IMG/VR virus record: IMGVR_UViG_3300050139_000074
Span: 1 to 58,829 of that record
Direction: 5' to 3' (one strand)
Source: a virus
DNA: 58,829 nucleotides
The notes under the pieces are model-generated. The model did no database searches and had not been told where the DNA came from. It saw only the letters and a program-made list of their open reading frames with translations. How positions within the stretch are numbered: position 1 is the stretch's first letter; every line of letters starts with the position of its first letter. Position numbers and translations under genes: made by a program. Positions 14,026 through 58,829 of this stretch are shown here, in pieces.

Positions 14026-16826
14026 GCGTTACATTCATTCGCAGGCTCCTTCCCAGTTCCGGGGTTCTCTGTTCAGGCATACTCCAAGCAGGCGGTGGGT
14101 TCAAGCATCGCTGGTTCTCCACACCGGAAGACCTTTATGCTCAGGTACTCGCTGCTGACCAGCAGGGTGCTACGGTCTACATCGCCCAGGCTTCTTTTAA
14201 GACGCAGGGGTCAAGGGCGCAGATTAATGCTTCGCTCCTTCGTAATTTCTTCTTAGATCTCGACTGCGGACCGGGGAAACCATTTGCCACACAGATGGAC
14301 AGCTACGCAGCACTTAAAGAGTTCTGCGTTACAACCGGGTTACCCTTCCCCTCCTTCGTGTCCTCAGGACATGGCACCTACGCCCACTGGATAATGGACC
14401 AAGATATTGAGGCTACACAGTGGCGCGGTGTAGCCACCATCCTGAAGAAGCTCACGCTGCACCACAAGTTTGAAGTTGATCAATCCCGTACCTCGGACTC
14501 CTCCTCGGTGCTCCGCCCCATCGGTGTACATAACCGGAAGCATGGTCTGGTGAAGCCGGTAAGGCTGCTCTTTGACGCTCCTGACATTTCGTTCTCCTAC
14601 TTCCTTGAAGTGCTCCACAAGGCAGCGCACAAGGCAAAGATCGAGACGCAGATCCTTGAGCCTCCGAAGGAGTCCTTGTTCAAGGGATTAAATGATGAGT
14701 TCTCGTCGGGGATCGCTGGTCCTGAGTCCTCGCTCCTCCTTGTCGCAGACAAGTGCGCTCAGGTTAAGTTGGTGCGCGCGAAGCGGGGAGATGTTTCTGA
14801 GCCTCTCTGGTATGACTTCATTGGTCTCGCCAGGCACTGTTCCGAAGGAACAGACCTTATCCACGAGTGGAGCGCGGGGCATCCGGACTACACCCCCTCT
14901 GGGTGTGATACAAAGATCCAGCATCACATAGCCTCCGGTGTCGGCCCGACAACCTGTGGCAAGTTCGGCGCAGATAATCCTGAAGGCTGCGTTGCCTGCC
15001 CTTACGTGAACAAGGTCAAGAGTCCTATCGTTCTTGGCCGGCCAGAGGCACCGATACTTACGGCGGAAGCCGTAGGATCTGAAGAAGAGGAACATCACAC
15101 CCCGTACGGTTTCCAACGTCGTGAAGATGGGCTCTGGTTCAGCAATGAAGGTGTGTGGCAGCGCTTCTACCCATATGATATGTATGTCGCCCGTCTCGCC
15201 TACGATAGGTCGGTAGGTTACGAAGTAGCCACGGTGAGACACAAGGCACCGTTCGAGTCGCAGTACAAAGAATTTAATCTCCGGAGCGCGTTACTCCACG
15301 ATACCAAACAATTACTCATGGCGCTGGCAGACAGTCACGTACACACCCCTGCGGGCGAGCCAAGAAAGCAGATGGTGAATTATATGGATGGCTGGTTGAG
15401 CGACCTCCGGGCGAAGAGAGCACTCTCGAATCTTCATTCACAGATGGGGTGGTACGAGAAAGATGGCGAACTATCATTCGCCCTGGGCGCCAAGGTGTTC
15501 AGGAAAGATCAGGAAGTGATGGATGCAGGCCTCGCCCGGAACGTGCCTGATATTGCCAAGTCGTTCAGAAAGGAAGGTGACAGTGATGATTGGAGCGATG
15601 CTACGAAATATCTGGGCATGGGTGGCATGGAGCCTATGGCGTTTGCTTTTCTCGCCGGTGCCTTCGGGGCGCCTCTTCTCAGGTTCACAGGTTACGCTGG
15701 TGCGATGGTGGCGCTCGTGGGTGACTCAGGCATCGGTAAAACGCTTCTGGGCGAGTGGATCATGTCGATGTACGGAGATTCTAAACAGCTTATTCTCCAG
15801 AAAGAGGATACGAAGAACTTTTTGGTTCAGAGGCTAGGTCTCTACGGCTCCCTCCCACTCTACGTCGATGAAATCAGTAATATTGATTCACAGGAATTCT
15901 CCGACTTGGTCTACCGTGTCACGCAAGGCAGGGACAAAGGAAGGTTGAACCGGAGCGGGGTGGAGCGGGAGTTCACGAACTCTTGGAACACCATCGCCGT
16001 CGTATCATCCAATCATTCATTGATGGACAAACTCTCGACGTTGAAGGCTGATGCCTCCGCCGAGATCAACAGGATCTTTGAAGTGCAGTGCCCACGACTC
16101 TCCGCCTTCGGTCGTGAAGAAAGCACCTACGTATACCGCACGCTGCGGAATAACTTCGGAGTCGGCGACACCTTCATCCAGTATCTGGTTGATCACCAGG
16201 AGCAACATCAGGAGAAGATAGACATGCTGATTGCCCAGATCGACCAGAAGACAGGGGCAAGACCAGAGGAAAGGTTCTGGTCAGTCGTGGCCGGTACGGC
16301 CATCTACGGAGGTCTCATCGCACATAAACTAGGCATCATTAAGTTCTCACCGGCGAAGATCCTCTCGTGGGTCGTCGAGCACATTCTCTCCATGCGCGAG
16401 AACAAGAAGGAGCAGGTGACGAACCAGATTGACTTCCTCGGCCAGTTCCTCGATGAGCATCTGCAGGGCGCCATGATCTGCAATAACAACGGTAAGGGTG
16501 AGATGCCCTCCATGCTCAAGGAGCCTCGTGGCAATCTGGTGTACCGCATTAATCTCGATACGCACAGACTGTACATTGCTCGTAACGTCCTGAAGAAATA
16601 CCTTGATAAGCATTACGGCAGCTATACGAAGTTAAAGGCGGAGGTTCAGGCAATCGGAGCGCTGGTAAATGCGGATTCACGCAAGGTCCTCGGCGCAGGT
16701 ACATGGCTCAGCGGTTCGCAGACGCCGGTGTGGGAGATAGACCTCAAGGTGCCGGCCCTCGGACGTACGGCCCTGACCTTGGTAAGGAAGGCGGCTGCTG
16801 AAGATCTAGGGGTGGGTAAGGTATGA
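14022..16826 (+). CDS. Bifunctional primase-helicase (AEP-like primase plus SF3/AAA+-type ATPase)
   Basis: 934 residues. The N-terminal primase/polymerase-like region carries FFLDLDCG (metal-binding D-x-D), SSGHGTYAHW (S-G-x-G-x-x-x-H/W) and VDQSRTSDSSSVLRPIGVHN, the three motifs of archaeo-eukaryotic primase folds. The middle has a cysteine cluster (CGKFGADNPEGCVACPY), probably zinc-binding. The C-terminal ATPase has Walker A ALVGDSGIGKTLLGEW and Walker B-like LPLYVDEISN, then a sensor-like IAVVSSNHS. It should unwind DNA and lay primers for the family A polymerase. It is linked by ATGA overlaps to the two methyltransferase genes that flank it. Confidence 0.82.
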   Translation: MSVTFIRRLLPSSGVLCSGILQAGGGFKHRWFSTPEDLYAQVLAADQQGATVYIAQASFKTQGSRAQINASLLRNFFLDLDCGPGKPFATQMDSYAALKEFCVTTGLPFPSFVSSGHGTYAHWIMDQDIEATQWRGVATILKKLTLHHKFEVDQSRTSDSSSVLRPIGVHNRKHGLVKPVRLLFDAPDISFSYFLEVLHKAAHKAKIETQILEPPKESLFKGLNDEFSSGIAGPESSLLLVADKCAQVKLVRAKRGDVSEPLWYDFIGLARHCSEGTDLIHEWSAGHPDYTPSGCDTKIQHHIASGVGPTTCGKFGADNPEGCVACPYVNKVKSPIVLGRPEAPILTAEAVGSEEEEHHTPYGFQRREDGLWFSNEGVWQRFYPYDMYVARLAYDRSVGYEVATVRHKAPFESQYKEFNLRSALLHDTKQLLMALADSHVHTPAGEPRKQMVNYMDGWLSDLRAKRALSNLHSQMGWYEKDGELSFALGAKVFRKDQEVMDAGLARNVPDIAKSFRKEGDSDDWSDATKYLGMGGMEPMAFAFLAGAFGAPLLRFTGYAGAMVALVGDSGIGKTLLGEWIMSMYGDSKQLILQKEDTKNFLVQRLGLYGSLPLYVDEISNIDSQEFSDLVYRVTQGRDKGRLNRSGVEREFTNSWNTIAVVSSNHSLMDKLSTLKADASAEINRIFEVQCPRLSAFGREESTYVYRTLRNNFGVGDTFIQYLVDHQEQHQEKIDMLIAQIDQKTGARPEERFWSVVAGTAIYGGLIAHKLGIIKFSPAKILSWVVEHILSMRENKKEQVTNQIDFLGQFLDEHLQGAMICNNNGKGEMPSMLKEPRGNLVYRINLDTHRLYIARNVLKKYLDKHYGSYTKLKAEVQAIGALVNADSRKVLGAGTWLSGSQTPVWEIDLKVPALGRTALTLVRKAAAEDLGVGKV

Positions 16827-18367
16827 ACTACCTTTCAATCTGCAGCGGGATTGAGGCCGCATCGGTAGGGTGGCAGCACCTTGGATGGAAAGCTCTCGGT
16901 TTCTCAGAAATTGAGTCCTTCCCTTCAGCGGTGCTGAAGCACCACTACCCTGAAGTACCGAACCTTGGCGACATGACGAAGCATAAAGACTGGAGTTTCG
17001 ATGAACGCATTGATCTATTGGTGGGTGGCTGCCCATGCCAGGCATTTAGTGTTGCAGGTGCAAGACGGAGCCTGGACGACGAAAGAGGGAATCTCACCCT
17101 CACCTTCTGTAATATCGCTGATCAGTTTGAGCCTCGGTTTACCCTTTACGAAAACGTCCCAGGAATACTCAGCACCAAGGATAACGCCTTCGGCTGTCTC
17201 CTCGCTGGCCTTGCAGGACTCGATGAAGCCCTTGAAACTGAAAAAGGCAAATGGCCTGGTAACGGTCTGGTCATCGGCGGAAGACGGAGAGTGGCGTGGG
17301 TCACTCTCGACGCTCAATTTTTCGGTGTACCGCAGCGAAGACGCAGGGTGTTTGTCCTTGCCGTCGATGCCCAATCTGTCGCAGATTCTCCAAACCTCTG
17401 CCCATCCAAGATTCTATCTATCGGCACGAGCATGCGCCGGGATACTCCGCCGCGCAGAAAAGCGGGGGAAGAAACTTCCTCCTCAACTGGAGGAGGCGTT
17501 GAGAGCTGTTACGGCATAGACGAAGAATGTAACGCCTCGGATAATCATTTTGGTCCTTTACTGCGAGGCGGTCAAGGTGGAACGCGACAGCCTGTCGCGT
17601 TCCAGCAGAATACGAGGGACGAGGTTCGTTTGATCGGCGGAGAGGGGCTCCTGCCAGGAGCCCTTGCGGCACAGGCGGGGATGAAGCAGACGAATTATAT
17701 TGCTGAAGGCTACCACACCACCGGAGCCGGTTACTGGCAGGAAGGTTCAGGAACTTTAAGAGCGCGGGAGCAGGACTCGCATGAGAATCTGGTTACAATA
17801 ATGGCCCACGGACAAGCCAATGCCGAGATACGAAGCGACGGCGAACCGCCGTCGCTGACTTGTAACCATGAGGCACCTATTGTGGTTCACGGCGCACAAG
17901 ACCCTTGCACCTCTGATATTGCTTTTGCACAGGGTAGGAATAATGGTGGTGAGAATGTTGTCGCTTATTCGATGATAACCGCGAACACAGGTGCTAACGG
18001 CCTCGGACTCGGATTCGAAATAAACCCTACTCTTGACCGAGCGCAGCCTAACGCTGTTGCTTTTCAACAAAACGCTTCCGGTGAAATTTTCACCGGAGCG
18101 TTGGCAGGTACAGTCGGTACAAACCCAAATGCATCGGGGCGTAATACTCAGATGATTTTTACAGGGGTGGGAAAAACGCCGTTTACGGTGCGCAGACTTA
18201 CTCCCGAAGAATGTGAAATTTTAATGGGATTTCCGGTCGGGTACACCGACATTAAGCTGAAAGGTAAACCTACACCTGACGGGCCGAGATATAAGGCACT
18301 TGGTAACTCAATGTGCACATCAGTGATGCGGTGGGTCGGAGGTCGAATTGAAATGGTACGAGATTGA
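16823..18367 (+). CDS. C5-cytosine DNA methyltransferase
   Basis: 514 residues. Motif I LSICSGIEAASVGW, motif IV LLVGGCPCQAFSVAG (catalytic Cys in PCQ), motif VI TLYENVPG, motif VIII PQRRRRVFVLAV and motif X region YKALGNSMCTSV are all visible, so the enzyme looks intact. Between VIII and IX is a long region of about 200 residues with two related segments (VAFQQNTRDEVR ... GALAAQAG and VAFQQNASGEIF ... GALAGTVG). This is the place of the target-recognition domain, and such repeats are known in phage-encoded enzymes. ATGA overlap with the primase-helicase; a small TTG gene starts inside its end. Confidence 0.9.
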   Translation: MNYLSICSGIEAASVGWQHLGWKALGFSEIESFPSAVLKHHYPEVPNLGDMTKHKDWSFDERIDLLVGGCPCQAFSVAGARRSLDDERGNLTLTFCNIADQFEPRFTLYENVPGILSTKDNAFGCLLAGLAGLDEALETEKGKWPGNGLVIGGRRRVAWVTLDAQFFGVPQRRRRVFVLAVDAQSVADSPNLCPSKILSIGTSMRRDTPPRRKAGEETSSSTGGGVESCYGIDEECNASDNHFGPLLRGGQGGTRQPVAFQQNTRDEVRLIGGEGLLPGALAAQAGMKQTNYIAEGYHTTGAGYWQEGSGTLRAREQDSHENLVTIMAHGQANAEIRSDGEPPSLTCNHEAPIVVHGAQDPCTSDIAFAQGRNNGGENVVAYSMITANTGANGLGLGFEINPTLDRAQPNAVAFQQNASGEIFTGALAGTVGTNPNASGRNTQMIFTGVGKTPFTVRRLTPEECEILMGFPVGYTDIKLKGKPTPDGPRYKALGNSMCTSVMRWVGGRIEMVRD

Positions 18368-18565: not shown

Positions 18566-21500
18566 TCAACGCTCTACCCCATACTCACTCTTCACAATCT
18601 GTTCCCGCTTCGAGAGTACTCCAGCCTTCTTATCACGTTCCCGTTTAACTGCAGATGCCAGCTCCTGCGCCGTCACCTTGAGAGCAGGGTTCTTCTCTGA
18701 CCAATGATTCAGTTTCTCTATGGCTTCTTCCTGCCCGTCAACATCCTGCTCGGCACTCGCCGTAGCGAGTCCTTTGACGAGCGAGGCACGCCTCTGCGAG
18801 AGCGAAGTAGAGATATTTTTTAGATACCGTGACTCTTGCTGCGCCAGAGAAACGTCCATAGGATTGATGCCAGCGAGCATCAAGGCGAAGCTCCACGGAG
18901 AGACATCTTCGCTCTTCAAGAGTGTCTTGCCGCCACCCTGTACACCATTATTATACACCTCCGCCGTCTTGAACAAGTCGCGTACTGGCTTAGGAGACGT
19001 CATGCGCATGTACTCTGACAGGTCACCATCGGCCAAGGCATCCATGCCCCGAATAGTATCGGAGGCTACACCCCACGCAGGGCCGAGAATACGTCCGGCG
19101 TACCAGTTCGCCTTGGCAGTGCCGGTGAGCCCCGGAGGTGGGTCGCCTTGAATTATGTCCATCATGCCCCCGGCTCCGATGCGCCTTGATATATCAGCAC
19201 CGACAAGAGAAGGCAGACCTTTCATAAACAGGTTGGCCGTCGTATCCCCCACAGCTTCTCTGAGACCTTTCTCGAAGTCGCCTGCTACATTCCAAGGGTC
19301 GTCCGGGTCTTCAAACATGGCGGAGATGCCAGCCCACAGTGCGCTGGTCACTGAGTTAGAGAGCATCATAGCAATGGGAGTGCCGCCGGCGCCGGCAAGG
19401 GCGAAGGCCGACCCCATCTGGTAAGCCAGTTCCTGCCGTGCTTCGCTCTTCATCTGCTCCGCACCTTCCATACTAGAGAAGAAGGCCTTCACATCTTCAG
19501 GCATGCCCTCACGTGTTTCGGTTGAGTGGTAGGCTTTTCCATCCTTGGTGAGCCGGTGCTGAGATTCTCCGTTTTTTGTAATACTCATTACGTCGTAGCC
19601 GTTGGCTTCTGCGGTCGCCTTTGCATCGGAGATGCTTCGGTCGTACTCACCACCAGCAGCGTCCTTCAGGAGCTGGATCGTCTTACCTACCATGTGGAAG
19701 CGGAAGAACTGGAACTGCCCGAGGATACGCCCGGTGTTGCCTCGCCACATCTCGCCCCGGTTCTGGGAGTCGAAATTGAACAAGGTGTCATCAATGATGT
19801 CTGCGGCGTAGTCATGCGCCTTCAAGAACCCGTCCTTGGCTGCGAGGCCAAAAGATGAGATAGCTGCCGCCCGGCGCGAACCGGTCTCGGACTTCTGCAT
19901 GAAGATGCCAGCCTTATCAATTATCTTATTCATAGTCTTGGTGCCGTTGTCCGACCCTGCGATCTCATCTCCGACCATGTGCGACATGGAGAGATCTATC
20001 GCTCCCTGGTGCGAGAGCACTTTGAGCACGAGAAGTTTCTGGTTGTCCGACATGACCTTACCGGGCTCGCTAAAAGAGTTATACATCGCAGTCATCTGGG
20101 CTTCAAGAGCCTCGCGCTCTATCGGCAGTGCCTCGCGGCTCTGCTCGACCAGCTTAGATAATTTCTCTCCTATGTAGTCATTCTCTCGATCAAAGGCATC
20201 GATCTTCTCATCCGAGTACCGGCCAGCCATGTACTCTTTGGCGGAGCGGCTGTAAGATGCGAGGGATGTGCCGTACCCATAACGTGCAGCAAGTTTCGGT
20301 ATGGTGGTCATGTAAGGCTGTGCCCACTGCACGGCAAAAGTAGAAGGGCTGGATAGATACCACAGGAACGTAACCTTGCTGACAGCCTTGGTCAGCTCAT
20401 TGATCTTCTCAGTGTTCCCCGCCTTCTCATTGACGTACAGGTGATTATACAGCTTGTACATATCACGGATGTCGTCAGGGTTAGCAGGGCGAGAAGAGTC
20501 GGAGTCTCGGGCATCTATCTCGTTCCGCATGTCTCTGAACGTCTGCTCAACCTTGGAGCCATAAAGGAGTTGAGCGTTCGCAATCGAGTGGTTCCTGATG
20601 TACGTGAGGTACGAGCGCACTACATCAGTGCTGTACCCTTCTATATTCTCACGGTGGAGCTTGTTACCCTTGGTGGTGGTGCGCGGCAACGTATTAATCC
20701 TGAGACCCTCCGCCGACTGCATGAGACCCTGCAGAGCCTCGCCTGTGAAACCCTTGGCCTCCGCCGCAGCCCTGAACTTGTCGAGGAACGCCGCCGGGAT
20801 ATTAATCACATCTCTTCGCGCATCAAGACGTTCCTCAATCTTTGCATGAAGATCGTTCGTCTTATCCTGATTAATCCTGTTCACCGCATCTATCGCGGCC
20901 TTCGGACTTTCAAAGAACTCAGTCTTGACCCGGTTACCGATCTCACCGTTGGATGTCTCGTAGGTACGCACGGCGGTGTCTCCGAACCGCATAAGGGGCA
21001 TGTAGTCACCTTGCAGCTTCGGGTAGCGCATATCAACAGCTCTTACGAGTGGCGCCACGTCCTGAGCATCTTGGGAGAAGCCCGAGAGATCCTGTTTCGC
21101 GTCCAACGCCTTATTATACGCCTCCGCCTCCTTCACCACATCTTCGCCATGAACCACTTTCAACGGTGCCAGCTCCGCCTCCCGCCCTTTCTCATACATC
21201 TGGGTGACGTGATCAATCATCTCACGGTGGGCGAGGCGCTGCGCGGGGTCAAGTTTTGAGTAGAGGTTTTTGATCTCAGCCTGTGCATCTTCCAGACTCT
21301 TACCTGTAGATTCTTCAAGCCCTGCGGATTTCCAAGTCTCGGGTGTCCAGTTGTCCTTGCCGTCTGCACGCAGCTCGTAGGTCGTCGCCTTCCACACAAG
21401 ATCGGATAGAGTCTTCGCCTCTCCCTCAGTCTTAAAAGCCTTGGAGACCGCCTGCCACTTGATACCTGCGTCTCTGAGTTCCGACGACTTATACCCTGCC

Positions 21501-24500
21501 ATCTCTTTATGCTGCTGCATGAGTGCATTAAGATGCGCCTTGATCGGCGCGTAGGGCGCCTGAGACGCAGCGAGCCGGATGGATCTGTCCACAGGGAAGA
21601 GGTAACGATAAGTGGAGTCGATGATGCCTTTGACGAGCCTCTTGGCTGAGACTCCGTCTTTGAAGAAGTTGGTAACGCCTTTGGCTACCTTCTCCGAAGG
21701 GGCGGCAACATCTACCATTGAGGCGGCGAACTTCATAAATGATGCAGGCGTAGCCTGCGTGATTGGTATGTAGGGGACGGCTTGTAACCCGCCTCGCTGC
21801 TCCTCGGAGGCGATCTGTTGCGCCGCGTCTTGAGCTTCTCGGAGCGACTTAAACCCATTCACTAATTCCCCAGAATCATATAGCACGTATTCTTTACCGT
21901 CGGTTCGGATTCTAAATCCTTGAGGCTCGTTCCGCCACTGGCTGAATCCTGTAGTTGCGTCAGGGGTCTCATTGAACTTGACTCCGCCTAAGTCGGTTCT
22001 CTCAACCCCCTCGCCACCATACTTCTTGAACAGCGAGGGGAGAGTCTTGTCGTAAAGGGACTTGAGGCCTTCGCCACCTACTTTTAAATCCAACCCTGAA
22101 TACTCCAAAGGCACTGCGTCGCGGGTTGCGCGCAACTTGTCATACTCCGCTTCGGATATACTGCCATCTGTCTTTCTCAAGGCATCTCGATACGCTGTGT
22201 TGGCGGCTGTCCATGTCTTAGAATCATCGACAATCTTCTTGGCAAGTTCTTTACCTACGTTGTCCTCAACTTCCTGTACGGTTAGGTCGTGTTTAGTCAC
22301 CCTACCGTGGTTCTTCATGTCAAACACAAGCTCATAAGTCCCGTTGGAGTTTGGAGCAGCCTCAATACTGTCTACTTCCTTACTCAGATCGTACCGCTTC
22401 GCCTGCATTTCACCAGGCGTCCACGCCACACCATCGAACCCGTTCTCTTTAGCGTAGCTAAGGACTCGCTTAACCCCAAGATCATAGATCCTGTTCCGCA
22501 GGAACTGCGGCATGTTCTTCTGGTTGGCGTCACTCGGGCCTTGCATCTCTTCAACGAAGAGAATTTTTTTACCGTCAGTTTCTCTTTCATTGAACCTGAC
22601 GCGTACCACTGGGTTCTGAATATCTGAGTACTGGGAGTGTCCGTCTTGCCACCGAGAATCTTTTTGGTTCATCGCGTCGTTTTCCGCTGCCACCCTGCGA
22701 GCTTCTTCCTCAGTCAGATGCGAAGTCTGGTGCTGCTCATCGCCTACAATCCGTACGCGCCACGGCCTCCCTGCCCCTTCTTGCTTGTAGACTTCGTGAC
22801 GGCGGGTTACGTCGTTTGGAGCCGTTACAAACATCTCACGATACGACCCCTCTTTGGCACCGGGTTCGGTGTATTGGGAGAAGTGGGTTGGTGCTTTTGG
22901 TGCAGCACTTTCGCGCACTTTGTCTTTTTCTGTGCTGTTGAGTCTGCTGTAGGGTTGACCATACAGCTTCTTGGCATACGCGTCCAAGTCAGATTCGGTC
23001 AAATTCTCTACCGGAACATCCCCCAAAACCACATCCTTCAGCTCAACGGCGTTCGCCTTCAACTCATCCTGAACCTCTTTAGCTGTGAACCGTTCTCGCG
23101 ATGCGAGAAACTCTTCGAGTCCTGATGCCTTGACTTCATCAGCCTTCAGCCCCTTATCCTTCAGGATGTTCTCGAAGTGTGAGCGTGGTAGAGGTTTATC
23201 TTGGTTCACAGATTTCAAGCGTTCTGAGAACAGGTCTTCCAGCTTTGAGTACCACGGCTTCGCCTCCGGTGCTACGGAGAACTGCGTACCACCATCACCT
23301 GCGATGACGTTCTCTTTCTGGGCCTTTGCTAGCATCTCTGTGGCAGCTTTCTCGATGCGGGAATAATCCTTGAATATGCTAGCACTGAGCTGTGCGTGGT
23401 AACGTGCCGTGGTGATTGGCTTAAGAATATCCAGCACGACCTGGGCAATCTTCTCGATGAGCGTAGGGTTCTTCTCATGCAGAGCAGACCACACAGCAGG
23501 GTCGGTCATCAGATGCCCAACAGTCTCAGCCATTGCCTCGGATGGAAAGGTCTCCGCATCGTAGGATGTGCCATGCGCCTTATTATAACTATCCATGTAC
23601 TTAGAGAACTTATCAGTAGCGAGTTCTTCCTTGAACACTTTATGGAAAGCGTCGTAGACACCATCCCCACTCTGCTTCGAAGCAAATTCAATCGCATGGG
23701 TGAGCTCATGCCCAAAGATAACCAAGTGTGGATCTTTAGTCGTCGCCTTTATGTAGATGGTGTCAGGTGTACCGCCGTTGAAAAAGCCAGCAGGCGCTCC
23801 TGATACTCCGCCGGACTCTTCAAAAAGGTATACTTTTCTGCCCCAAACCGAAGCGATTTTGTTAAGTTTAGCCGCTGTATTATCATGTCCCTCAGCAGGT
23901 CGCAAGCTGCCTGGAGGAAAAGACTGTCCGGTCGTTTTCGCAAGGTCCTTCTCTGCCAGACGTAGGACTTCATCATTTGTGAGACGGTACTTTCCGTTGA
24001 CGGGTTCACTTGGATTTCCGGCGGGGTTGGGTCTGACAGGTTCACTATTATTGTTACTGGCCGCGTTATCCCCTCCGGTGGCGGTAGGCGCACCTGGTGC
24101 GCCTGTCTCAGATTGGCCTTGAAGAACTCCCCCATCGCCTACTCCTTTCTCAATTTTCGCAACAAGATCCTGCGCCCCTTGAATCTGCTGCTCCCGGTCG
24201 TAACCATCCCCGGCGGTCGCCGCAGTCTTGAAGTTCTGGATCTTGCCATTGATCTTCTCGAACGTAGCAACGTCCACGTTATTACCGGAAGAATCTTTCT
24301 CCCGCAGGGTGTAGACACCCTCGTTGGTATCATGCGTAATCACGGAATTGTCATCGACCTTGTAGACGTCAACGCCGTCTCTTGAGGCGACAGGCTTCGG
24401 GGCTACCGGTTCTTCAACCGGTGTAGCCACCACCTCACTTTCCTTAGGTTTAATCACCCACTTACCATCAGTGTCGCGCTGCACCACCTCATGCGTATCC

Positions 24501-25906
24501 GCCTTACTGCCGAGCTTCTTGGTTGCCGTCTTCTCGTCCTTGTATCCTTTATAGGCGACAAGCGGGTTCGTAATGAGTGGTGCCGGGGTGATTTCACCTG
24601 TGGTGTAATCTACGTTTTCAACAGGTGTTGATAAGTCTGTGGATAACTCCTGCGGAGCGGGAGCCTGCTCCACCGGAGCCGGGAGATCTTCGATATGCTG
24701 CGAAGCAGCAGCCTCGCCCCTCAGGGCGGAGTCCTGAGCCAGAGTATCCATCACACCTTCACCAGTAGTGGCACTCTTTGCCAAGGCAGTAAGTGCTTGA
24801 CTCTGCACTTCTTCGATGGTAGGAGGTTTCGCCCCCGCCTTCTCCTGTGCCTCGGCAGCAAGTTTGTCCATGACCGGTTTCAGCATGTCAGAGCTGGTGT
24901 CTATCGGGTTCTTTAAATTAACGTCCTGAAGAGCTTCGCTCCGCCACAGGTTAGCGGCGGAAGGATCGGCGGCATACATATGCTCGTAGAGAGCATTGAC
25001 GACCTTTGCGCGTTGCTCCGGGTTAAACTCCCCATCACTTAATACGCCTTTAAAAGCCTGTGCTGCGCCGGCTCTCTGAGCAGCGGTAAAGGCACCAAAA
25101 GCTCCGCCGGTAAGGGCTGAAGAGATCCACGCCTTGGGGTTAGCCAGCACCTCCTTCATCGGGTCGGCGTCGGGTCTTGCCCCGGTGTATTTCTCAGCAG
25201 CAGCGGTCGCCGCACCTTGGGCCTGCATGATCGGTGCATCTACGAGGACGGAGGAGCCTACGTCACCGGCCAAGGAGCGTAAAGATGGGCGCACGAGGTT
25301 CTGTGCTACGGCCTCAATACCGTGGGCCACCGCCTTCATGCCGAGCGACTCGGCCCCTGCTCGGAGCAATCCCTTCGCAGCGTGAGAAGCTGGACCCATG
25401 AGAGCCATGCCTGCACCAGAGGCAACGGCAGGGAGAATTGACGCCTGCATCGCATCGCCATCCGACATGCCGTTCGTCTTCGCACTCTCAAAGGAGCGTT
25501 CACCTTGAGACCCTGCGGCCTCCGCCGTAAGTGCTACGAGACCGGGGAGACCGGCAGCGAGGTACGGCACCATCTTGCCAACGCCTTCGGCGAGCTCTCC
25601 ACCTTGAGCGATGTAAGGGTGCGCCTCTTTGAACCCCGGAGTCATTGCATAATCTTTTTGCAACTCTTCACTCGCACGGCGTAACCCGCCGCCGAAGGTG
25701 CCGTCACCACCGAGAACACGAGAGGCGTACTGCCCAGCCTCACCTATGCCTTGACCGATGAGCCCTGCAACACGAGGAATGGCCTTGACCGTCTCTTGTG
25801 CAACCGTGGAATTACTTGGAGGGGCGCTGAGAATATCGTCGTAGGTGCCGGGAGACTTAAGCTCCGGAGCGGTGCCGTTCAGAATGTCGTCAAACATCCC
25901 GGCCAT
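18566..25906 (-). CDS. Giant polyvalent internal virion/ejection protein (2446 aa)
   Basis: A very long late protein with mixed domains. The N-terminal 300 residues are Ala/Gly-rich with hydrophobic helices. Residues about 733-737 carry a zinc metallopeptidase-type HELTH motif within VIFGHELTHAIEFAS. Around 1115-1170 is a domain with FVEEMQGPSDANQ and NGFDGVAWTPGEMQAKRYDL, which I recognise from large polyvalent phage proteins. From about 1850 come hydrophobic segments (LSSPSTFAVQWAQPYM and others). Such proteins are packaged in the head or core and delivered with the DNA. Last gene of the leftward unit; the ATG overlaps nothing and lies one base after the previous stop. Functions of individual domains are inference. 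Confidence 0.75.
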   Translation of the reverse strand: MAGMFDDILNGTAPELKSPGTYDDILSAPPSNSTVAQETVKAIPRVAGLIGQGIGEAGQYASRVLGGDGTFGGGLRRASEELQKDYAMTPGFKEAHPYIAQGGELAEGVGKMVPYLAAGLPGLVALTAEAAGSQGERSFESAKTNGMSDGDAMQASILPAVASGAGMALMGPASHAAKGLLRAGAESLGMKAVAHGIEAVAQNLVRPSLRSLAGDVGSSVLVDAPIMQAQGAATAAAEKYTGARPDADPMKEVLANPKAWISSALTGGAFGAFTAAQRAGAAQAFKGVLSDGEFNPEQRAKVVNALYEHMYAADPSAANLWRSEALQDVNLKNPIDTSSDMLKPVMDKLAAEAQEKAGAKPPTIEEVQSQALTALAKSATTGEGVMDTLAQDSALRGEAAASQHIEDLPAPVEQAPAPQELSTDLSTPVENVDYTTGEITPAPLITNPLVAYKGYKDEKTATKKLGSKADTHEVVQRDTDGKWVIKPKESEVVATPVEEPVAPKPVASRDGVDVYKVDDNSVITHDTNEGVYTLREKDSSGNNVDVATFEKINGKIQNFKTAATAGDGYDREQQIQGAQDLVAKIEKGVGDGGVLQGQSETGAPGAPTATGGDNAASNNNSEPVRPNPAGNPSEPVNGKYRLTNDEVLRLAEKDLAKTTGQSFPPGSLRPAEGHDNTAAKLNKIASVWGRKVYLFEESGGVSGAPAGFFNGGTPDTIYIKATTKDPHLVIFGHELTHAIEFASKQSGDGVYDAFHKVFKEELATDKFSKYMDSYNKAHGTSYDAETFPSEAMAETVGHLMTDPAVWSALHEKNPTLIEKIAQVVLDILKPITTARYHAQLSASIFKDYSRIEKAATEMLAKAQKENVIAGDGGTQFSVAPEAKPWYSKLEDLFSERLKSVNQDKPLPRSHFENILKDKGLKADEVKASGLEEFLASRERFTAKEVQDELKANAVELKDVVLGDVPVENLTESDLDAYAKKLYGQPYSRLNSTEKDKVRESAAPKAPTHFSQYTEPGAKEGSYREMFVTAPNDVTRRHEVYKQEGAGRPWRVRIVGDEQHQTSHLTEEEARRVAAENDAMNQKDSRWQDGHSQYSDIQNPVVRVRFNERETDGKKILFVEEMQGPSDANQKNMPQFLRNRIYDLGVKRVLSYAKENGFDGVAWTPGEMQAKRYDLSKEVDSIEAAPNSNGTYELVFDMKNHGRVTKHDLTVQEVEDNVGKELAKKIVDDSKTWTAANTAYRDALRKTDGSISEAEYDKLRATRDAVPLEYSGLDLKVGGEGLKSLYDKTLPSLFKKYGGEGVERTDLGGVKFNETPDATTGFSQWRNEPQGFRIRTDGKEYVLYDSGELVNGFKSLREAQDAAQQIASEEQRGGLQAVPYIPITQATPASFMKFAASMVDVAAPSEKVAKGVTNFFKDGVSAKRLVKGIIDSTYRYLFPVDRSIRLAASQAPYAPIKAHLNALMQQHKEMAGYKSSELRDAGIKWQAVSKAFKTEGEAKTLSDLVWKATTYELRADGKDNWTPETWKSAGLEESTGKSLEDAQAEIKNLYSKLDPAQRLAHREMIDHVTQMYEKGREAELAPLKVVHGEDVVKEAEAYNKALDAKQDLSGFSQDAQDVAPLVRAVDMRYPKLQGDYMPLMRFGDTAVRTYETSNGEIGNRVKTEFFESPKAAIDAVNRINQDKTNDLHAKIEERLDARRDVINIPAAFLDKFRAAAEAKGFTGEALQGLMQSAEGLRINTLPRTTTKGNKLHRENIEGYSTDVVRSYLTYIRNHSIANAQLLYGSKVEQTFRDMRNEIDARDSDSSRPANPDDIRDMYKLYNHLYVNEKAGNTEKINELTKAVSKVTFLWYLSSPSTFAVQWAQPYMTTIPKLAARYGYGTSLASYSRSAKEYMAGRYSDEKIDAFDRENDYIGEKLSKLVEQSREALPIEREALEAQMTAMYNSFSEPGKVMSDNQKLLVLKVLSHQGAIDLSMSHMVGDEIAGSDNGTKTMNKIIDKAGIFMQKSETGSRRAAAISSFGLAAKDGFLKAHDYAADIIDDTLFNFDSQNRGEMWRGNTGRILGQFQFFRFHMVGKTIQLLKDAAGGEYDRSISDAKATAEANGYDVMSITKNGESQHRLTKDGKAYHSTETREGMPEDVKAFFSSMEGAEQMKSEARQELAYQMGSAFALAGAGGTPIAMMLSNSVTSALWAGISAMFEDPDDPWNVAGDFEKGLREAVGDTTANLFMKGLPSLVGADISRRIGAGGMMDIIQGDPPPGLTGTAKANWYAGRILGPAWGVASDTIRGMDALADGDLSEYMRMTSPKPVRDLFKTAEVYNNGVQGGGKTLLKSEDVSPWSFALMLAGINPMDVSLAQQESRYLKNISTSLSQRRASLVKGLATASAEQDVDGQEEAIEKLNHWSEKNPALKVTAQELASAVKRERDKKAGVLSKREQIVKSEYGVER

Positions 25907-46935: not shown

Positions 46936-47453
46936 ACAGGCCACACAAAGGCTGGGAGAAGTGCAAGGAGTTCGGATTCAGTAGGCTTCGCTCTTGCCCC
47001 TGCTTTAACCTCAGACATTACGGTGTAACAAGTTGACCAGACAGCATCCCTCCAATCAACACCCGCTTTGCCTTCTGCTGCAAATTTTGTGTTTGAACTG
47101 GTTGCATAGGAAGCAAGTGAAAGAATCCCATCATAGTTTCTTTGTCTTGGTACGGAGTCAAGTTGGTTCTGAACAGCCTGTGTTAATAGGGCAATCCATT
47201 GAGTATCTGACACATCGGTTATAGCATAACTGCCAACCGGTTTACCATCCACAACATCTTTAGCCAAAGAGTACGTATGGTACGCGTCACGAGGTATGTT
47301 AGTAATTGTTACAGTGAAAATGTTCTGCTCAGCATAAAGCTCATCACTCACACCATCAGGGAATCCTACACTAAACCCGTCAGGATAACTCACACTACAA
47401 GGGGCTGAATCCCAATCCTGTACCCACACACCATCTATAATTTGAGCGTACAT
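46932..47453 (-). CDS. DUF4376-like tail-fibre associated protein (173 aa)
   Basis: The C-terminal half has SVPRQRNYDGILSLASYATS, NTKFAAEGKAGVDWRDAVWS and PTESELLALLPAF, the pattern of DUF4376/tail-fibre-associated C-terminal domains (R-x-Y-x-S-x-x-x-x-x-S-Y ... F-x-A-E-G-x-A ... W-R-D-x-V-W). The N-terminus (MYAQIIDGVWVQDW) is the usual start of such proteins. Probably part of the tail fibre or its assembly. Its start overlaps the GT9 half-gene by 19 bases. Confidence 0.65.
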   Translation of the reverse strand: MYAQIIDGVWVQDWDSAPCSVSYPDGFSVGFPDGVSDELYAEQNIFTVTITNIPRDAYHTYSLAKDVVDGKPVGSYAITDVSDTQWIALLTQAVQNQLDSVPRQRNYDGILSLASYATSSNTKFAAEGKAGVDWRDAVWSTCYTVMSEVKAGARAKPTESELLALLPAFVWPV

Positions 47454-47938
47454 AACGCCTCCATGACTACTTCAGGTTCTACAAATACTTTAGGATCGTA
47501 CTTAACACCTTCCCAGATTCCGAACTGATCAGGCCGGAGGTTCTCTCGGCTCTTGAGGATGTTCACATTCTCTGGATGCCCGAAGATCAGGGGGTCCGAT
47601 TTTCCCCACAGAACTATACCCTTCTTCCCCGTCGACCATCCTAGGTGCTGGAGGAAAGAGTCACCTGAGATGAAGGTGTCATACTCCTGCACGAGTTTTT
47701 GTAGTTCTACGTAGGGTACATTTATTCTGAAGTCGGGGACCAGTTGCTCTTCATCTTTTACACCAACCTGGGTTACATAATACCCCGCCTCGTCCAACAA
47801 TTTTACCACGGCACCCCAGAAGGGGTAATTCTTGGCATTATATTTTCCGTCTCTGAGCCTTCTAGCGAACGGTTGAATAACTATTCTCCCACCATAACCT
47901 CTCTGACCCCTAACACCTTCATACCCTGGTCCACTCAT
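47435..47938 (-). CDS. GT9 (heptosyltransferase-type) C-terminal half, separate gene (167 aa)
   Basis: Starts at ATG 47938 in ATGA overlap with the preceding fusion gene. The sequence has RIVIQPFARR, then NAKNYPFWGAVVKLLDEAGY, a VTQVG strand, ISGDSFLQHLGWSTGKKGIVLWG (the G-D-S-x-x-x-H-x-x-x sugar-nucleotide binding loop of GT9) and VNILK. This is the second Rossmann half of GT-B heptosyltransferase-like enzymes. The first half is at the end of the preceding protein, so the enzyme appears to be made of two polypeptides. It probably transfers a sugar to a phage or host target. Confidence 0.7.
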   Translation of the reverse strand: MSGPGYEGVRGQRGYGGRIVIQPFARRLRDGKYNAKNYPFWGAVVKLLDEAGYYVTQVGVKDEEQLVPDFRINVPYVELQKLVQEYDTFISGDSFLQHLGWSTGKKGIVLWGKSDPLIFGHPENVNILKSRENLRPDQFGIWEGVKYDPKVFVEPEVVMEALCTLKL

Positions 47939-49533
47939 AAATAAAGTCTCCGATACGCGTCTGCCAGTGAGTCGGTCCAGCCCCATTCAGCCATCTTTCG
48001 GTAGACGTTCCACTGCTCAACATCTATAAGCATCTTTGCCTGGTTAATGTTGATCACTTCTTCTCCGGCGAACACTTCAGGATAGCAGCAGGCAACAGTG
48101 ACCTTGCTGTACTTCTCTTTAAGCTCCGGGAGTAGCGCTGCGGCTACAATATGATCACCGAGGCCGTTATCGAGAACGATGATCTTACCAAGATCCAATG
48201 AGAGGAGCCGACTGGTCTCGGAGAACACAGCTTCGTCATGTGCAAACAAGTCTTTTGCCCTCTCTCTGATTCCGCCAAAGGGGTTCTTGAGGTGCCAAGT
48301 GACGCAGGGAGTCACCAAGACTTTGTACCCAGAGCATCGGAGTTTCCATGTGAAGTCCGTCTCTTCCCGGTGAGCCGCACGACTGAGTAGCAAGTTATAA
48401 TCTGCAACTCCGGCCCGGTACAAGAAAGAGCAGTGGAGATGCTCAACTTCCTGAGTCTCCTTGATTTTGCCCCACTGGATGTTTGGTTCGGAGAACAGGT
48501 TCTCCAGCTTGCCTGTAGCATTTATTGTTGGTACTGACGGCGGGGTAAGTATAGATCCACCTACGGCGCCTACACCATCGGCCATCTGCGCAAGAAGTTT
48601 CTCCAGCACATCAGGATTCGGCATGCAATCGTCGTCAATGCGCCACACGAAGTCATAACCCGATAGGTTCGCCCTCTGATGATTAAAGTGCTGCCCTCTT
48701 GGCTCATCTGGGTAGTACACCTCCCACTGAACGCCCTTCATCTGGAGCATCTGGAGGAGGTAAGCGTAGTGGGGCAGTTCTCTGAGATCTACTCTCGTCT
48801 CCGCCTCGTTATCGTCATAGATAATCAACTTCTCAGGCAGTCGTGTCTGCATAAGAACTGCTTGCAGGGCAAGGGGCAGAGTCGTCTCATATCTACCACG
48901 GGTAGAGATAGAGCAGAGAACCGAAGGCTCCGCCGTAAGTACCACACCTTTTTGCCACTTGAGGAGCATGAGGTTCTTGCCACATCCCTCTTCCGGTACA
49001 GAAATTATCTGGCCGTCGAAGCTGACATACTCAGTCTTCACATCTTTAAACTGTGCCACCGTCAGATGGTGCAACTTATGGTGTTCACCCCAGAATCCAG
49101 GGGTCTCGTCGTACGGGCAGGAAACGAGCAAGGTATTGCAATGCTCCTTCAGGATCTCTACGAGTTCAAGGCCGTTTTCAAGATGCTCGATTACTTCGAA
49201 AGCGATGATGGTATCTGCGTAGTAGTTGGGGAATAGCTCGAACAGGCGGTTCACATCACAGCAGCGGAACTTTGTACCTGGTGCTTCGAAGTTCACCTTG
49301 GCAACTTCAATGATCTTACGATCAAGGTCCACGCCTGTATAGTCAAGGGCCTCTGGCAAGAACTGCCGGCCATACCCGGTAGAGCACCCAATCTCAAGGA
49401 CAGAAGATCCTGTGAGGTTCTTGGCCGCCCACTCGTAGCGGGCGCGTTCACGGGGGAGAACTTCGTCTCCCTGAAGGAAGACGGCTCTCTCATATTTATT
49501 TGACAGCATGTAACGGTACTCTTCAGGCCGCAT
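47935..49533 (-). CDS. Methyltransferase-GT2 glycosyltransferase-GT9 N-half fusion protein (532 aa)
   Basis: Three parts. Residues about 40-190: AdoMet methyltransferase (SSVLEIGCSTGYGRQF, YTGVDLDRKII, TIIAFEVIEHLE). Residues about 200-440: GT2 glycosyltransferase (VLCSISTRGRYETTLPLALQ, LIIYDDNEAETR, FVWRIDDDCMPNPDVL with the D-x-D motif, AVGGSILTPP, REETDFTWKLRCSGYKV with the ED-like acceptor motif). Residues about 445-532: the N-terminal half of a GT9 enzyme (KIIVLDNGLGDHIVAAALLP). The ATG directly follows the stop of the collagen-like fibre gene (TAAATG), so fibre and cassette are co-translated. It may decorate the fibre; that is inference. Confidence 0.8.
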   Translation of the reverse strand: MRPEEYRYMLSNKYERAVFLQGDEVLPRERARYEWAAKNLTGSSVLEIGCSTGYGRQFLPEALDYTGVDLDRKIIEVAKVNFEAPGTKFRCCDVNRLFELFPNYYADTIIAFEVIEHLENGLELVEILKEHCNTLLVSCPYDETPGFWGEHHKLHHLTVAQFKDVKTEYVSFDGQIISVPEEGCGKNLMLLKWQKGVVLTAEPSVLCSISTRGRYETTLPLALQAVLMQTRLPEKLIIYDDNEAETRVDLRELPHYAYLLQMLQMKGVQWEVYYPDEPRGQHFNHQRANLSGYDFVWRIDDDCMPNPDVLEKLLAQMADGVGAVGGSILTPPSVPTINATGKLENLFSEPNIQWGKIKETQEVEHLHCSFLYRAGVADYNLLLSRAAHREETDFTWKLRCSGYKVLVTPCVTWHLKNPFGGIRERAKDLFAHDEAVFSETSRLLSLDLGKIIVLDNGLGDHIVAAALLPELKEKYSKVTVACCYPEVFAGEEVININQAKMLIDVEQWNVYRKMAEWGWTDSLADAYRRLYL

Positions 49534-51807
49534 TTATGCCTCTTTCCACACCTGACTGCACAGCCAGTTGCTACCTGCGATTGATGTTGCAACTACAAGA
49601 ACTCTCTTACCCGCCGATGGTGTAAATGGGTTACCTGAGAACCCCGAACCGGACATATCTGTCGCCCCGCTGCCGGCGATTCCTCCGGAGATGCCTACGG
49701 TGTACCCTGATGTTGCGTGCCCAGTGAGAAGAAGGGTAAGCGACTTGGCCCCGGAGGCTGAGGAAACTGCGGGGAACCCGAGTACAATATTTGCTGTCAG
49801 CGGCCCGATACTCTGTACGTTCGCGTTCGCGTAGTTAATTGGTATCCAGCCCGATGTAGCTGTCGGATAATCAGTCTCGATGTACCCCGGCGAGACGCCG
49901 CCGACTGCTCCGGAGAATCCTGAGTAACCCGATATACCGGAACCGGAGTAACCGGAGTAACCTGATATGCCACTCCATCCTGAGAACCCGGATGTACCTA
50001 CCGCTCCGGAGAATCCTGAGAATCCAGAACCTGAGAAGCCGGAGTAACCAGAGGTGCCTGCGGCGCCGTTCGTACCTGAGTACCCGGAGAAGCCTGATGT
50101 TGCTACTCCTGTGGGCCCTGAGTACCCAGAGTACCCTGAAATTCCGGAACCTGAGTACCCGGAATATCCTGATGTGCCGGCACCCGTTGCTCCTGAGTAC
50201 CCAGAATAACCGCTTACCCCTGAGCCTGAGTACCCAGAGAATCCAGATAAACCTGACGTACCTACACCGGTTGCACCTGAGTAACCGGAGATCCCGGAAC
50301 CTGAATACCCGGAGTAGCCACTTATACCTGAGGCTCCTACGGAGCCTGAGTACCCAGATAAACCTGACGTACCTACACCAGTTGCTCCTGAGTACCCAGA
50401 ATAACCGCTTACCCCCGAGCCTGAGTACCCGGAATACCCACTGTAACCTGATTTCCCCGAAAGCCCTTGGAGACCGGTGCCGCCCGCGCCTACTGCGTTC
50501 TGTGCAACGGCGTAATCGACAAAGATCTCGTGCCCGGAGAACCCACTGGATATGTGGTAGATGCGCGAAAGTACTGCCCCTCCGCTGATGTAGTTTGTGC
50601 CTACTGGCACCGGTATGATGACGGCGTTAAGAGCTGTTGAAGGTGGTATGACACCTACGGTGTCCCACGCTGCTGTGCTATTATTATAGAGCTGAAGATC
50701 CACAATATGCGCGGATGACCCCGTGTACCAGACGTTCAACGTGATCTGGTTCAGCTCTGTTACCCCAGAGAAGTCTACTCGTATATCGAAGCCGGGAACC
50801 CCTGAGACTTCTTGCACGTCGTAGACGTTGCCATCGTTGTACGTCTGTATCGAGGTGAGATCCCCACCGTTGAGCGTCCCGGTTGTGAGCGAGACTGATC
50901 CTGCTGCGAACGTCTCTGTTACTGGTGTGAGCCCCGAGTAACCCGACTTCCCGGAGAATCCAGAATAGCCGCTGTACCCTGCGCCCGATACTCCAGAGTA
51001 TCCTGAATACCCACTTATACCTGAGCCGGAGAAACCCGAGGCTCCTACGGAGCCGGAGAACCCAGAGAACCCGGAGGTTCCACTGAACCCGGAAGTGCCT
51101 ATGCCTGAGAACCCGGAGAACCCACTGAACCCAGAAGTGCCTATACCAGAGAACCCGGAGGCTCCTGAAGCCCCATTGAGACCAGAGAACCCTGAGGTGC
51201 CAGTGCCTGAGTAACCAGAGAACCCGGAGGCTCCGGAGAAGCCGGAGTATCCCGAAGCGGTAGCGAGACCGTCGAGACCCGAGAAGCCGGAGTACCCACT
51301 TATACCTGAACCTGAGAACCCAGAGTATCCCGAGAACCCGCTTACCCCTGAACCCGAGTACCCGGAGGCTCCCGCGGAGCCGGAGTACCCAGAGAAGCCA
51401 CTCTTGCCTGAGTACCCTGACGTCCCGACCGGAAGGTCAATCGGGGGGTACAGTGTACCTTGGATATTGAACTCACTCCATGAGATGGGTGTGAGATCCC
51501 CGGTGAGTAGTGCTGCTGAGAACGGGGTGAAGTTTCTATGCACTACCTCGCACCGGTAAACGGTGAACGTCGCACCACGATCATTCGGCCACAGGTTGAC
51601 AGAGAACTCACCATTCTGGTTGGTGGTCGCTGTTATTACGGATGTGATTATTCGTTCCCGGTTGATCGCGTCCCACGTATCTGAGGGCTGGTCGTACTCA
51701 TCTGTAAGGGTGAATTTGATGAGGATATTTGCAAGCGGTGTGCCGGTGGCATCCACAAGAGGTTGGCCGGAGTTTGTTATGGTGCGTACAATTGATGGGC
51801 TTGGCAT
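49534..51807 (-). CDS. Collagen-like (Gly-X-Ser) tail fibre
   Basis: 757 residues from ATG 51807 (SD AGGAG six bases upstream). An N-terminal beta domain of about 125 residues (particle attachment) precedes two long Gly-X-Ser blocks at about residues 128-293 and 442-638, dominated by GYS, GFS and GAS triplets. A non-repeat beta domain of about 150 residues separates them (TETFAAGSVSLTTGTLN ... HEIFVDYAVAQNAV). The last about 110 residues form a globular head (PGYIETDYPTATSGWIPIN ... SNWLCSQVWKEA). The blocks have two-residue breaks (SG-x-SG) at intervals and essentially no proline, unlike animal collagen. It probably forms a long fibre; the glycosylation cassette follows at once. Confidence 0.75.
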   Translation of the reverse strand: MPSPSIVRTITNSGQPLVDATGTPLANILIKFTLTDEYDQPSDTWDAINRERIITSVITATTNQNGEFSVNLWPNDRGATFTVYRCEVVHRNFTPFSAALLTGDLTPISWSEFNIQGTLYPPIDLPVGTSGYSGKSGFSGYSGSAGASGYSGSGVSGFSGYSGFSGSGISGYSGFSGLDGLATASGYSGFSGASGFSGYSGTGTSGFSGLNGASGASGFSGIGTSGFSGFSGFSGIGTSGFSGTSGFSGFSGSVGASGFSGSGISGYSGYSGVSGAGYSGYSGFSGKSGYSGLTPVTETFAAGSVSLTTGTLNGGDLTSIQTYNDGNVYDVQEVSGVPGFDIRVDFSGVTELNQITLNVWYTGSSAHIVDLQLYNNSTAAWDTVGVIPPSTALNAVIIPVPVGTNYISGGAVLSRIYHISSGFSGHEIFVDYAVAQNAVGAGGTGLQGLSGKSGYSGYSGYSGSGVSGYSGYSGATGVGTSGLSGYSGSVGASGISGYSGYSGSGISGYSGATGVGTSGLSGFSGYSGSGVSGYSGYSGATGAGTSGYSGYSGSGISGYSGYSGPTGVATSGFSGYSGTNGAAGTSGYSGFSGSGFSGFSGAVGTSGFSGWSGISGYSGYSGSGISGYSGFSGAVGGVSPGYIETDYPTATSGWIPINYANANVQSIGPLTANIVLGFPAVSSASGAKSLTLLLTGHATSGYTVGISGGIAGSGATDMSGSGFSGNPFTPSAGKRVLVVATSIAGSNWLCSQVWKEA

Positions 51808-51842
51808 GACATACTCCTGGCCGATGTTCGTCGGCAAAGGGG

Positions 51843-58315: not shown

Positions 58316-58829
58316 ATGAAAAAAGTACTGACAAAGCAGGTTTCAGAGTTGTATCATTTTATAGATGGTGAGCGCGTAGAAGGAGTAAGCTCCGGTCTCA
58401 GTGGTGACTGCTCCGATCTCAGTGGTGACTGCTCCGGTCTCAGTGGTAGCGTCTCCGGTCTCAGTGGTGACTGCTCCGGTCTCAGGGGTGACTGCTCCGG
58501 TCTCAGGGGTGACTGCTCCGGTCTCAGGGGTGACTGCTCCGATCTCAGGGGTGACTGCTCCGATCTCAGGGGTGACTGCTCCGATCTCAGGGGTGACTGC
58601 TCCGATCTCAGTGGTGACTGCTCCGGTCTCAGGGGTAACTGCTCCGGTCTCAGTGGTGACTGCTCCGGTCTCAGGGGTGACTGCTCCGGTCTCAGGGGTG
58701 ACTGCTCCGATCTCAGGGGTAACTGCTCCGGTCTCAGGGGTAACTGCTCCGGTCTCAGGGGTAACTGCTCCGGTCTCAGTGGTAACTGCTCCGGTCTCAG
58801 TGGTGACTGCTCCGGTCTCAGGGGTGACT
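58316..58829 (+). CDS. Heptapeptide-repeat protein, N-terminal part (gene broken by contig end)
   Basis: ATG 58316 after AGGAGG. A unique N-terminus of 23 residues (MKKVLTKQVSELYHFIDGER and three more) leads into one partial and 20 full [D/N]-C-S-[D/G]-L-[S/R]-G units to the contig end, with one Ser-Val variant near 58448. The frame is continuous with base 3 of the window if the two ends are joined by their 6-base overlap. No function known to me. Confidence 0.75.
   Translation, partial: MKKVLTKQVSELYHFIDGERVEGVSSGLSGDCSDLSGDCSGLSGSVSGLSGDCSGLRGDCSGLRGDCSGLRGDCSDLRGDCSDLRGDCSDLRGDCSDLSGDCSGLRGNCSGLSGDCSGLRGDCSGLRGDCSDLRGNCSGLRGNCSGLRGNCSGLSGNCSGLSGDCSGLRGD
58385..58829 (+). repeat. 21-bp tandem repeat array (right part)
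   Basis: 20 complete units plus partial ones, same unit and same three variable positions as the array at 3-716. Confidence 0.95.

Follow-up and report, generated by a model that had tools for sequence, protein, structure and literature searches.

A serine-glycine tail-fibre gene linked to a methyltransferase-glycosyltransferase cassette in tailed phages: a likely unit of fibre self-glycosylation

The fibre-cassette locus

We analysed a tail-fibre gene and the enzyme genes that adjoin it in the viral record IMGVR_UViG_3300050139_000074 (IMG/VR, positions 1 to 58,829); the window is this whole stretch of 58,829 nucleotides. The fibre is collagen-like and rich in Ser-Gly repeats. The enzyme cassette comprises two overlapping open reading frames (ORFs), ORF1 and ORF2, with methyltransferase, GT2 and GT9 glycosyltransferase domains (Table 1). 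A preliminary description had placed the system at 47435-51807, which runs from the end of ORF2 to the ATG of the fibre gene; a TTG at 51837 is an alternative fibre start. The locus lies among the late tail genes of a tailed phage; the genes for the terminase, a portal-like protein, the major head protein and an SU10-type adaptor are all on the fibre's strand. No promoter-like site was found on the minus strand in this region, including between the fibre and the cassette.

Table 1. Features of the fibre-cassette locus, in window coordinates
Feature	Position	Strand	Details and evidence
Collagen-like Ser-Gly fibre gene	49534..51807	-	757 aa; Pfam Collagen, PHROG tail fibre, repeat counts
Fibre N-terminal anchor domain, residues 1-117	51457..51807	-	Retained in the stalk-less lineage relative L508
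First Gly-X-Ser stalk, residues 128-294	50926..51426	-	Collagen-phase runs
Non-repetitive domain separating the two stalks, residues 295-441	50485..50925	-	Sequence
Second Gly-X-Ser stalk, residues 442-638	49894..50484	-	Sequence
C-terminal fibre domain, residues 639-757	49537..49893	-	Sequence
TAAATG junction, fibre stop abutting ORF1 start	49531..49536	-	Sequence
Cassette ORF1, 532 aa: methyltransferase-GT2-tail	47935..49533	-	Pfam, AlphaFold2, Foldseek, alignments of relatives
Cassette ORF2, 167 aa: GT9 donor (C) lobe	47435..47938	-	Pfam Glyco_transf_9, AlphaFold2, Foldseek
Upstream flank gene, 164 aa	51843..52337	-	Syntenic counterparts in L507-L510, beside the fibre anchor, are 31-48% identical
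Downstream flank gene, 173 aa	46932..47453	-	47% over 89 aa to L508:7595-8044

The Ser-Gly repeat of the fibre is real and far above chance expectation. The protein contains 144 serines, and the pattern SG.SG occurs 77 times, against a mean of 1.3 (maximum 6) in shuffled sequences. Gly-aromatic-Ser triplets (G[FYW]S) number 59, against a shuffle mean of 3.8 (maximum 10), and 36 other Gly-X-Ser triplets bring the total to 95. The Gly-X-Y repeats are recognised by Pfam Collagen (PF01391), which scores the fibre at 81 bits (cut-off 27.2), and the protein also matches PHROG tail-fibre families. In strict triplets of the window fibre, Ser fills 84% of the Y positions, while Pro is found at about 1% of X and at none of Y. 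Across 54 cassette-linked fibres (8401 triplets), Ser takes 89% of the Y positions and Pro 0.3%, while Pro makes up about 1% of X. The "hundreds" of Gly-aromatic-Ser triplets in the preliminary description are in fact 59, and the repeat is not continuous, since two stalks flank a non-repetitive domain. Its observation that the fibre stop touches the start of the next gene was correct.

ORF1 carries two recognisable enzymes. Residues ~1-200 form an S-adenosylmethionine (SAM) methyltransferase (Methyltransf_23, 1.9e-9) and residues ~201-445 a GT2 glycosyltransferase of the GT-A fold (Glycos_transf_2, 2.1e-7). The tail that follows (~446-532) is an 87-aa Rossmann-like strand-helix segment in which the motif GxGDH is invariant among relatives. 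ORF2 matches Pfam Glyco_transf_9 (E 6.3e-7), and PF01075 is found in 15 of 16 members. Pfam thus recovers all three domains of the methyltransferase-GT2-GT9 gene first described, although they do not make up one gene: the donor lobe of GT9 has an ORF of its own, which overlaps ORF1 by ATGA at 47935-47938. An ATGA or GTGA overlap of the two GT9 cistrons recurs in 61 of 69 clusters of relatives, and no GT2N9-GT9C fusion ORF exists among 161 GT9C ORFs (GT9N and GT9C denote the ORF1 tail and the ORF2 lobe). Together these rule out both a single three-domain gene and a frameshift error within a GT9 gene. The overlap suggests that ORF2 is translationally coupled to ORF1.

The ORF1 tail may supply the N segment of a GT9 enzyme that ORF2 completes. 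We read it in this way because ORF2 corresponds to the donor half only and because heptosyltransferases carry their catalytic Asp in the N lobe. AlphaFold2 single-chain models reached a predicted local distance difference test (pLDDT) score of 80.5 for ORF1, with a predicted template modelling score (pTM) of 0.57, and a pLDDT of 83.6 for ORF2. In Foldseek searches of the PDB, the ORF1 model is closest to polypeptide N-acetylgalactosamine (GalNAc) transferases (1e-9), with TarP, GlfT2 and chondroitin polymerase close behind, and the ORF2 model is closest to TibC (9e-5), followed by WaaF (4e-4). At the profile level, ORF2 gives a weak match to heptosyltransferase I among PDB sequences (E 0.42), and GT2-GT9N gives no match. 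The predicted folds fit a protein-serine acceptor without establishing one. Neither ORF has a membrane segment (maximum 19-residue hydropathy 1.39 for ORF1 and 0.79 for ORF2). Taken with the lack of a promoter-like site between fibre and cassette, this points to enzymes that probably stay in the cytoplasm and are produced together with the fibre.

Conservation of the fibre-cassette pair

The linkage between fibre and cassette is well supported: it is conserved over hundreds of viral contigs, it holds in both directions, and it is specific to the Ser-Gly repeat. Scans with ORF1 and ORF2 detected at least 443 and at least 588 viral relatives, respectively, whereas only three loci were found in the 84,980 cellular species scanned. 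Clustering at 90% left 45 non-redundant cassettes for which the upstream sequence exceeds 3 kb. A Ser-Gly ORF lies within 6 kb in 43 of these: 30 within 150 bp, 12 farther away, and one (L129) overlapping the cassette start by 63 nt, which brings the adjacent pairs to 31. We looked for cassettes lacking any Ser-rich fibre, which the preliminary description had named as evidence against its proposal, and found none save L162, a fragment that is uninformative on the presence of a fibre, and L512, where no fibre is near the cassette. L129 was set aside as a counterexample owing to its overlap, and so was L113, a 75.6-kb contig with Ser-Gly stretches elsewhere than near its cassette.

The association also holds when contigs are selected by the repeat. 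Ignoring the cassette, we selected contigs with a DNA pattern that represents the Ser-Gly-aromatic repeat; of the 49 that were 15 kb or longer, 25 have GT2-GT9N at E < 1e-80, with a weak, partial 26th match. Among contigs chosen by a GPTGPT collagen-like pattern, without habitat matching to the Ser-Gly set, none of 45 carries the cassette (Fisher p 1.6e-9). The cassette therefore tracks the Ser-Gly repeat and not collagen-like fibres generally, which rules out collagen-likeness as such as the attractant. Conservation of the pair, which had been proposed as a check, is thus seen in both the forward and the reverse count.

Gene order is not fixed. In divergent large phages the order is reversed, with the Ser-Gly fibre beginning 3 nt after the cassette (L517 and L518) or 0.2 kb after it (L514); in L513, L515 and L516 the fibre is within about 3 to 6 kb. 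An isolated phage also carries the system. In the Methylophilaceae phage P19250A (KX815270), the order is Ser-Gly fibre, methyltransferase, GT2-GT9N and GT9C. Its gene 0023 (L082:8333-11938; 1201 aa, 179 SGxSG) is annotated as a "tail length tape-measure protein", an annotation that gene 0015 bears too. Judged by sequence, P19250A_0023 is a Ser-Gly fibre and not a tape measure, and P19250A_0024-0026 are the cassette.

Probable joint gain in the window's own lineage

The stalk and the cassette (about 47435-51456) appear to have been acquired as a unit, added to an anchor that was already resident. Backbone relatives were found through the window's major capsid protein (MCP; contigs of at least 15 kb, n = 30). 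None of the 30 has the cassette or the Ser-Gly repeat; the only matches were one junk match (8.5e-4) and two isolated ones of 14 nt. Because of this absence from all 30, we infer a gain in the window rather than a loss elsewhere. The relative L508 keeps the upstream flank gene (48% identity) and the downstream one, as well as the fibre anchor, whose counterpart at L508:10214-10873 is 45% identical across 110 aa (E 1e-28). It lacks both stalk and cassette and has other fibre genes in their place. This suggests that stalk and cassette behave as a single unit.

Proposed mechanism and alternatives

We think it likely, with some reserve, that the Ser-Gly stalk and the methyltransferase-GT2-GT9 genes constitute one functional, transferable unit of a self-glycosylating tail fibre. 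The fibre would be made late, alongside other virion proteins, and ORF1 and then ORF2 would be translated right after it from the same message. The ORF1 tail and ORF2 would together form a GT9-type transferase. One glycosyltransferase would place a sugar on the Y-position Ser of nearly every Gly-X-Ser triplet, a second would extend it, and the methyltransferase would cap the glycan. Dense Y-position sugars could then make the collagen-like, proline-free stalk stiffer and better protected and alter its adhesive surface. We infer the fibre serines to be the sugar acceptors, and likewise the order of sugars, the methylation target, co-transcription and what the phage gains. There is little reason to invoke antibody-like evasion, which the preliminary description had entertained, in a lake phage.

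Several observations weigh against this proposal. About half of the repeat-selected contigs have no cassette, although their stalks have the same composition; some of these are fragments, and at least five lack a Ser-Gly ORF in the fetched stretch. We found no compositional signature that divides cassette-positive from cassette-negative stalks. Such stalks are thus common without the cassette and compositionally alike, and can evidently exist without being glycosylated by it. In L512 (a 494-kb contig), the 20 kb fetched contain no Ser-Gly fibre, and the L113 cassette sits in a sugar cluster far from the Ser-Gly stretches of that contig. The counts overstate the number of independent events, since two shared flank genes join 41 of 48 loci into one connected set of backbones by single linkage; the window, L113/L162, L057, L158, L110 and L083 are outside it. 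The missing habitat match of the GPT control belongs here too. On the enzyme side, the fold matches are unspecific: WaaF is almost as near to ORF2 as TibC is, and ORF1 resembles numerous GT-A enzymes with glycan substrates. A profile of the ORF1 tail gave only noise against the PDB, with no significant match to a GT9 chain, so that its assignment draws on motif and model.

The enzymes might instead modify the host envelope, either lipopolysaccharide (LPS) or another surface glycan, against superinfection or re-adsorption to debris, and lie near the fibre because this is a host-recognition region. GT9 is the LPS heptosyltransferase family, WaaF and WaaC are structural neighbours of ORF2, and glycosyltransferases in pelagimyophage host-recognition clusters have been interpreted in this way (PMC7029224). 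Furthermore, the L113, L512 and L514 cassettes are set within larger sugar clusters with nucleotide-sugar genes. Envelope modification, however, predicts neither the association with one repeat type nor that the enzymes would be gained along with the stalk where the anchor is conserved. The enzyme genes are also on an apparent late message with the fibre and, unlike gtr seroconversion cassettes, encode no membrane segments. We regard this explanation as unlikely.

A less probable alternative is that the virion is glycosylated elsewhere than on the Ser-Gly repeats, either in a globular domain of the fibre or on some other structural protein. The fibre does have non-repetitive middle and C-terminal domains, and in mycobacteriophages the glycans are on capsid and tail-tube C-termini (Freeman 2023, as described in PMC12619734). 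Against this, the repeat is the feature that cassette-bearing phages have in common, and GPT fibres are without the cassette. Stalk and cassette might also simply hitch-hike, as neighbours that do not act on each other, in a host-recognition module of freshwater phages that recombines readily. This would accommodate the common cassette-less stalks and the concentration of loci in one connected set of backbones, but we consider it the least probable explanation, since adjacency holds in both gene orders and on different backbones (the window, the P19250A group, L514, L517 and L518) and a cassette with enough sequence almost never lacks the stalk.

A broader form of the self-glycosylation proposal is more tentative, and we would not yet favour it. 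It holds that the horizontally moving module was undescribed before and is widespread in freshwater phages, that Y-position Ser sugars take over, in a proline-free stalk, the role of proline or hydroxyproline in other collagens, and that two overlapping cistrons share one GT9 active site. If the self-glycosylation proposal is true, phages in many lakes carry portable fibre-glycosylation kits; their fibre chemistry would be virus-encoded and exchanged as one unit. Glycosylation would also offer a way to stabilise collagen-like material that contains no proline, and a set of orphan phage glycosyltransferases, of a type at present assigned to the modification of DNA or LPS, would be explained.

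Other features of the contigs

Other enzyme genes occur near Ser-Gly fibres. Genes for 2-oxoglutarate (2OG)-Fe(II) oxygenases (PF13640) lie near the fibre on contigs without the glycosyltransferase cassette (L408:2509-3683 and L409:11943-12536), and one is ~15 kb from the fibre on a contig with it (L513:952-1560). Radical SAM enzymes are encoded beside Ser-Gly fibres that lack a full cassette (L405:1458-3122 and L417:13825-14586), one with an intein and one with SPASM. Ser-Gly stalks may thus be modified in several ways. Beside the L512 cassette are a nucleotidyltransferase and an NAD-dependent epimerase/dehydratase (L512:6127-9565, checked with Pfam), and the genes at L514:11267-14135 have similar starts. 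Such nucleotide-sugar genes in large phages suggest that activated sugar may in some cases be provided by the phage itself.

Elsewhere in the window, a 21-bp tandem repeat, ACTGCTCCGGTCTCAGGGGTA, is found at both contig ends (4-720, 34 copies; 58389-58829, 21 copies), so this is probably an almost complete genome whose break falls within the array. The early region holds two likely DNA methyltransferase genes (13291-14025 and 16823-18367; N6/N4-type and C5-type, with motifs identified by eye only). A 2446-aa ORF in the late region (18566-25906) is possibly an ejected virion protein, judging by size and position only.

Comparison with known systems

Virion self-glycosylation, viral glycosyltransferase-methyltransferase fusions and glycosylated viral collagen are each already known. 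The literature searched contained no description of the fibre-cassette pairing, its mobility or the split GT9, which is weak evidence of novelty. The gtr seroconversion cassettes consist of a membrane flippase and a membrane glycosyltransferase; ORF1 and ORF2, in contrast, have no membrane segment.

Viral enzymes offer partial parallels. A064R of the chlorovirus PBCV-1 is likewise a viral GT-A and O-methyltransferase enzyme, thought to build a methylated virion glycan, but that glycan is on the capsid of an alga virus, the domain order differs, and there is neither a GT9 nor a fibre neighbour (PMC4691112). Mimivirus L230, a collagen lysyl hydroxylase-glucosyltransferase, shows that a virus can glycosylate its own collagen-like protein, although the acceptor is hydroxylysine, the two-domain enzyme is unrelated and the virus is a giant virus (PMC4691112). 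Phage collagen-like fibres include EPclA and EPclB of an E. coli O157 prophage, which form trimeric triple-helical stalks (PMC3368898). Those fibres are proline-rich, and recombinant EPclA tested as not glycosylated (PMC3368898), in contrast to the proline-poor stalks described here. Thr glycosylation is a recognised means of collagen stabilisation (mentioned in PMC3368898), and sugars may stabilise the proline-poor stalk.

A further enzymatic parallel is with the GT9 bacterial autotransporter heptosyltransferases (BAHTs) TibC and AAH. TibC heptosylates Ser, not Thr, of long repetitive adhesins/autotransporters and has its catalytic Asp, D110, in the N lobe (PMC4358343). The ORF2 fold is nearest to TibC, with WaaF almost as near, and a GT9-type donor lobe is present. 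The invariant GxGDH motif of the ORF1 tail contains an Asp that may correspond to D110, although no GT9 chain gave a significant profile match. Here, however, GT9 is divided over two polypeptides. The N-terminal beta-barrel of TibC/AAH is absent, with the strand-helix segment after the GT2 domain instead, and there is no four-cysteine iron finger: window ORF2 has one Cys, and alignments of relatives have no invariant Cys columns. Without the barrel and the finger, the enzyme may work like TibC but is not classed in its family.

Mycobacteriophages likewise glycosylate their own capsid and tail (Freeman 2023, via PMC12619734). Their glycans are on capsid and tail-tube C-termini, and the relevant passage of PMC12619734 mentions neither a collagen-like fibre nor a split GT9 or a fused methyltransferase. 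As in phage systems of virion self-glycosylation, a transferase gene is linked to a structural gene here too.

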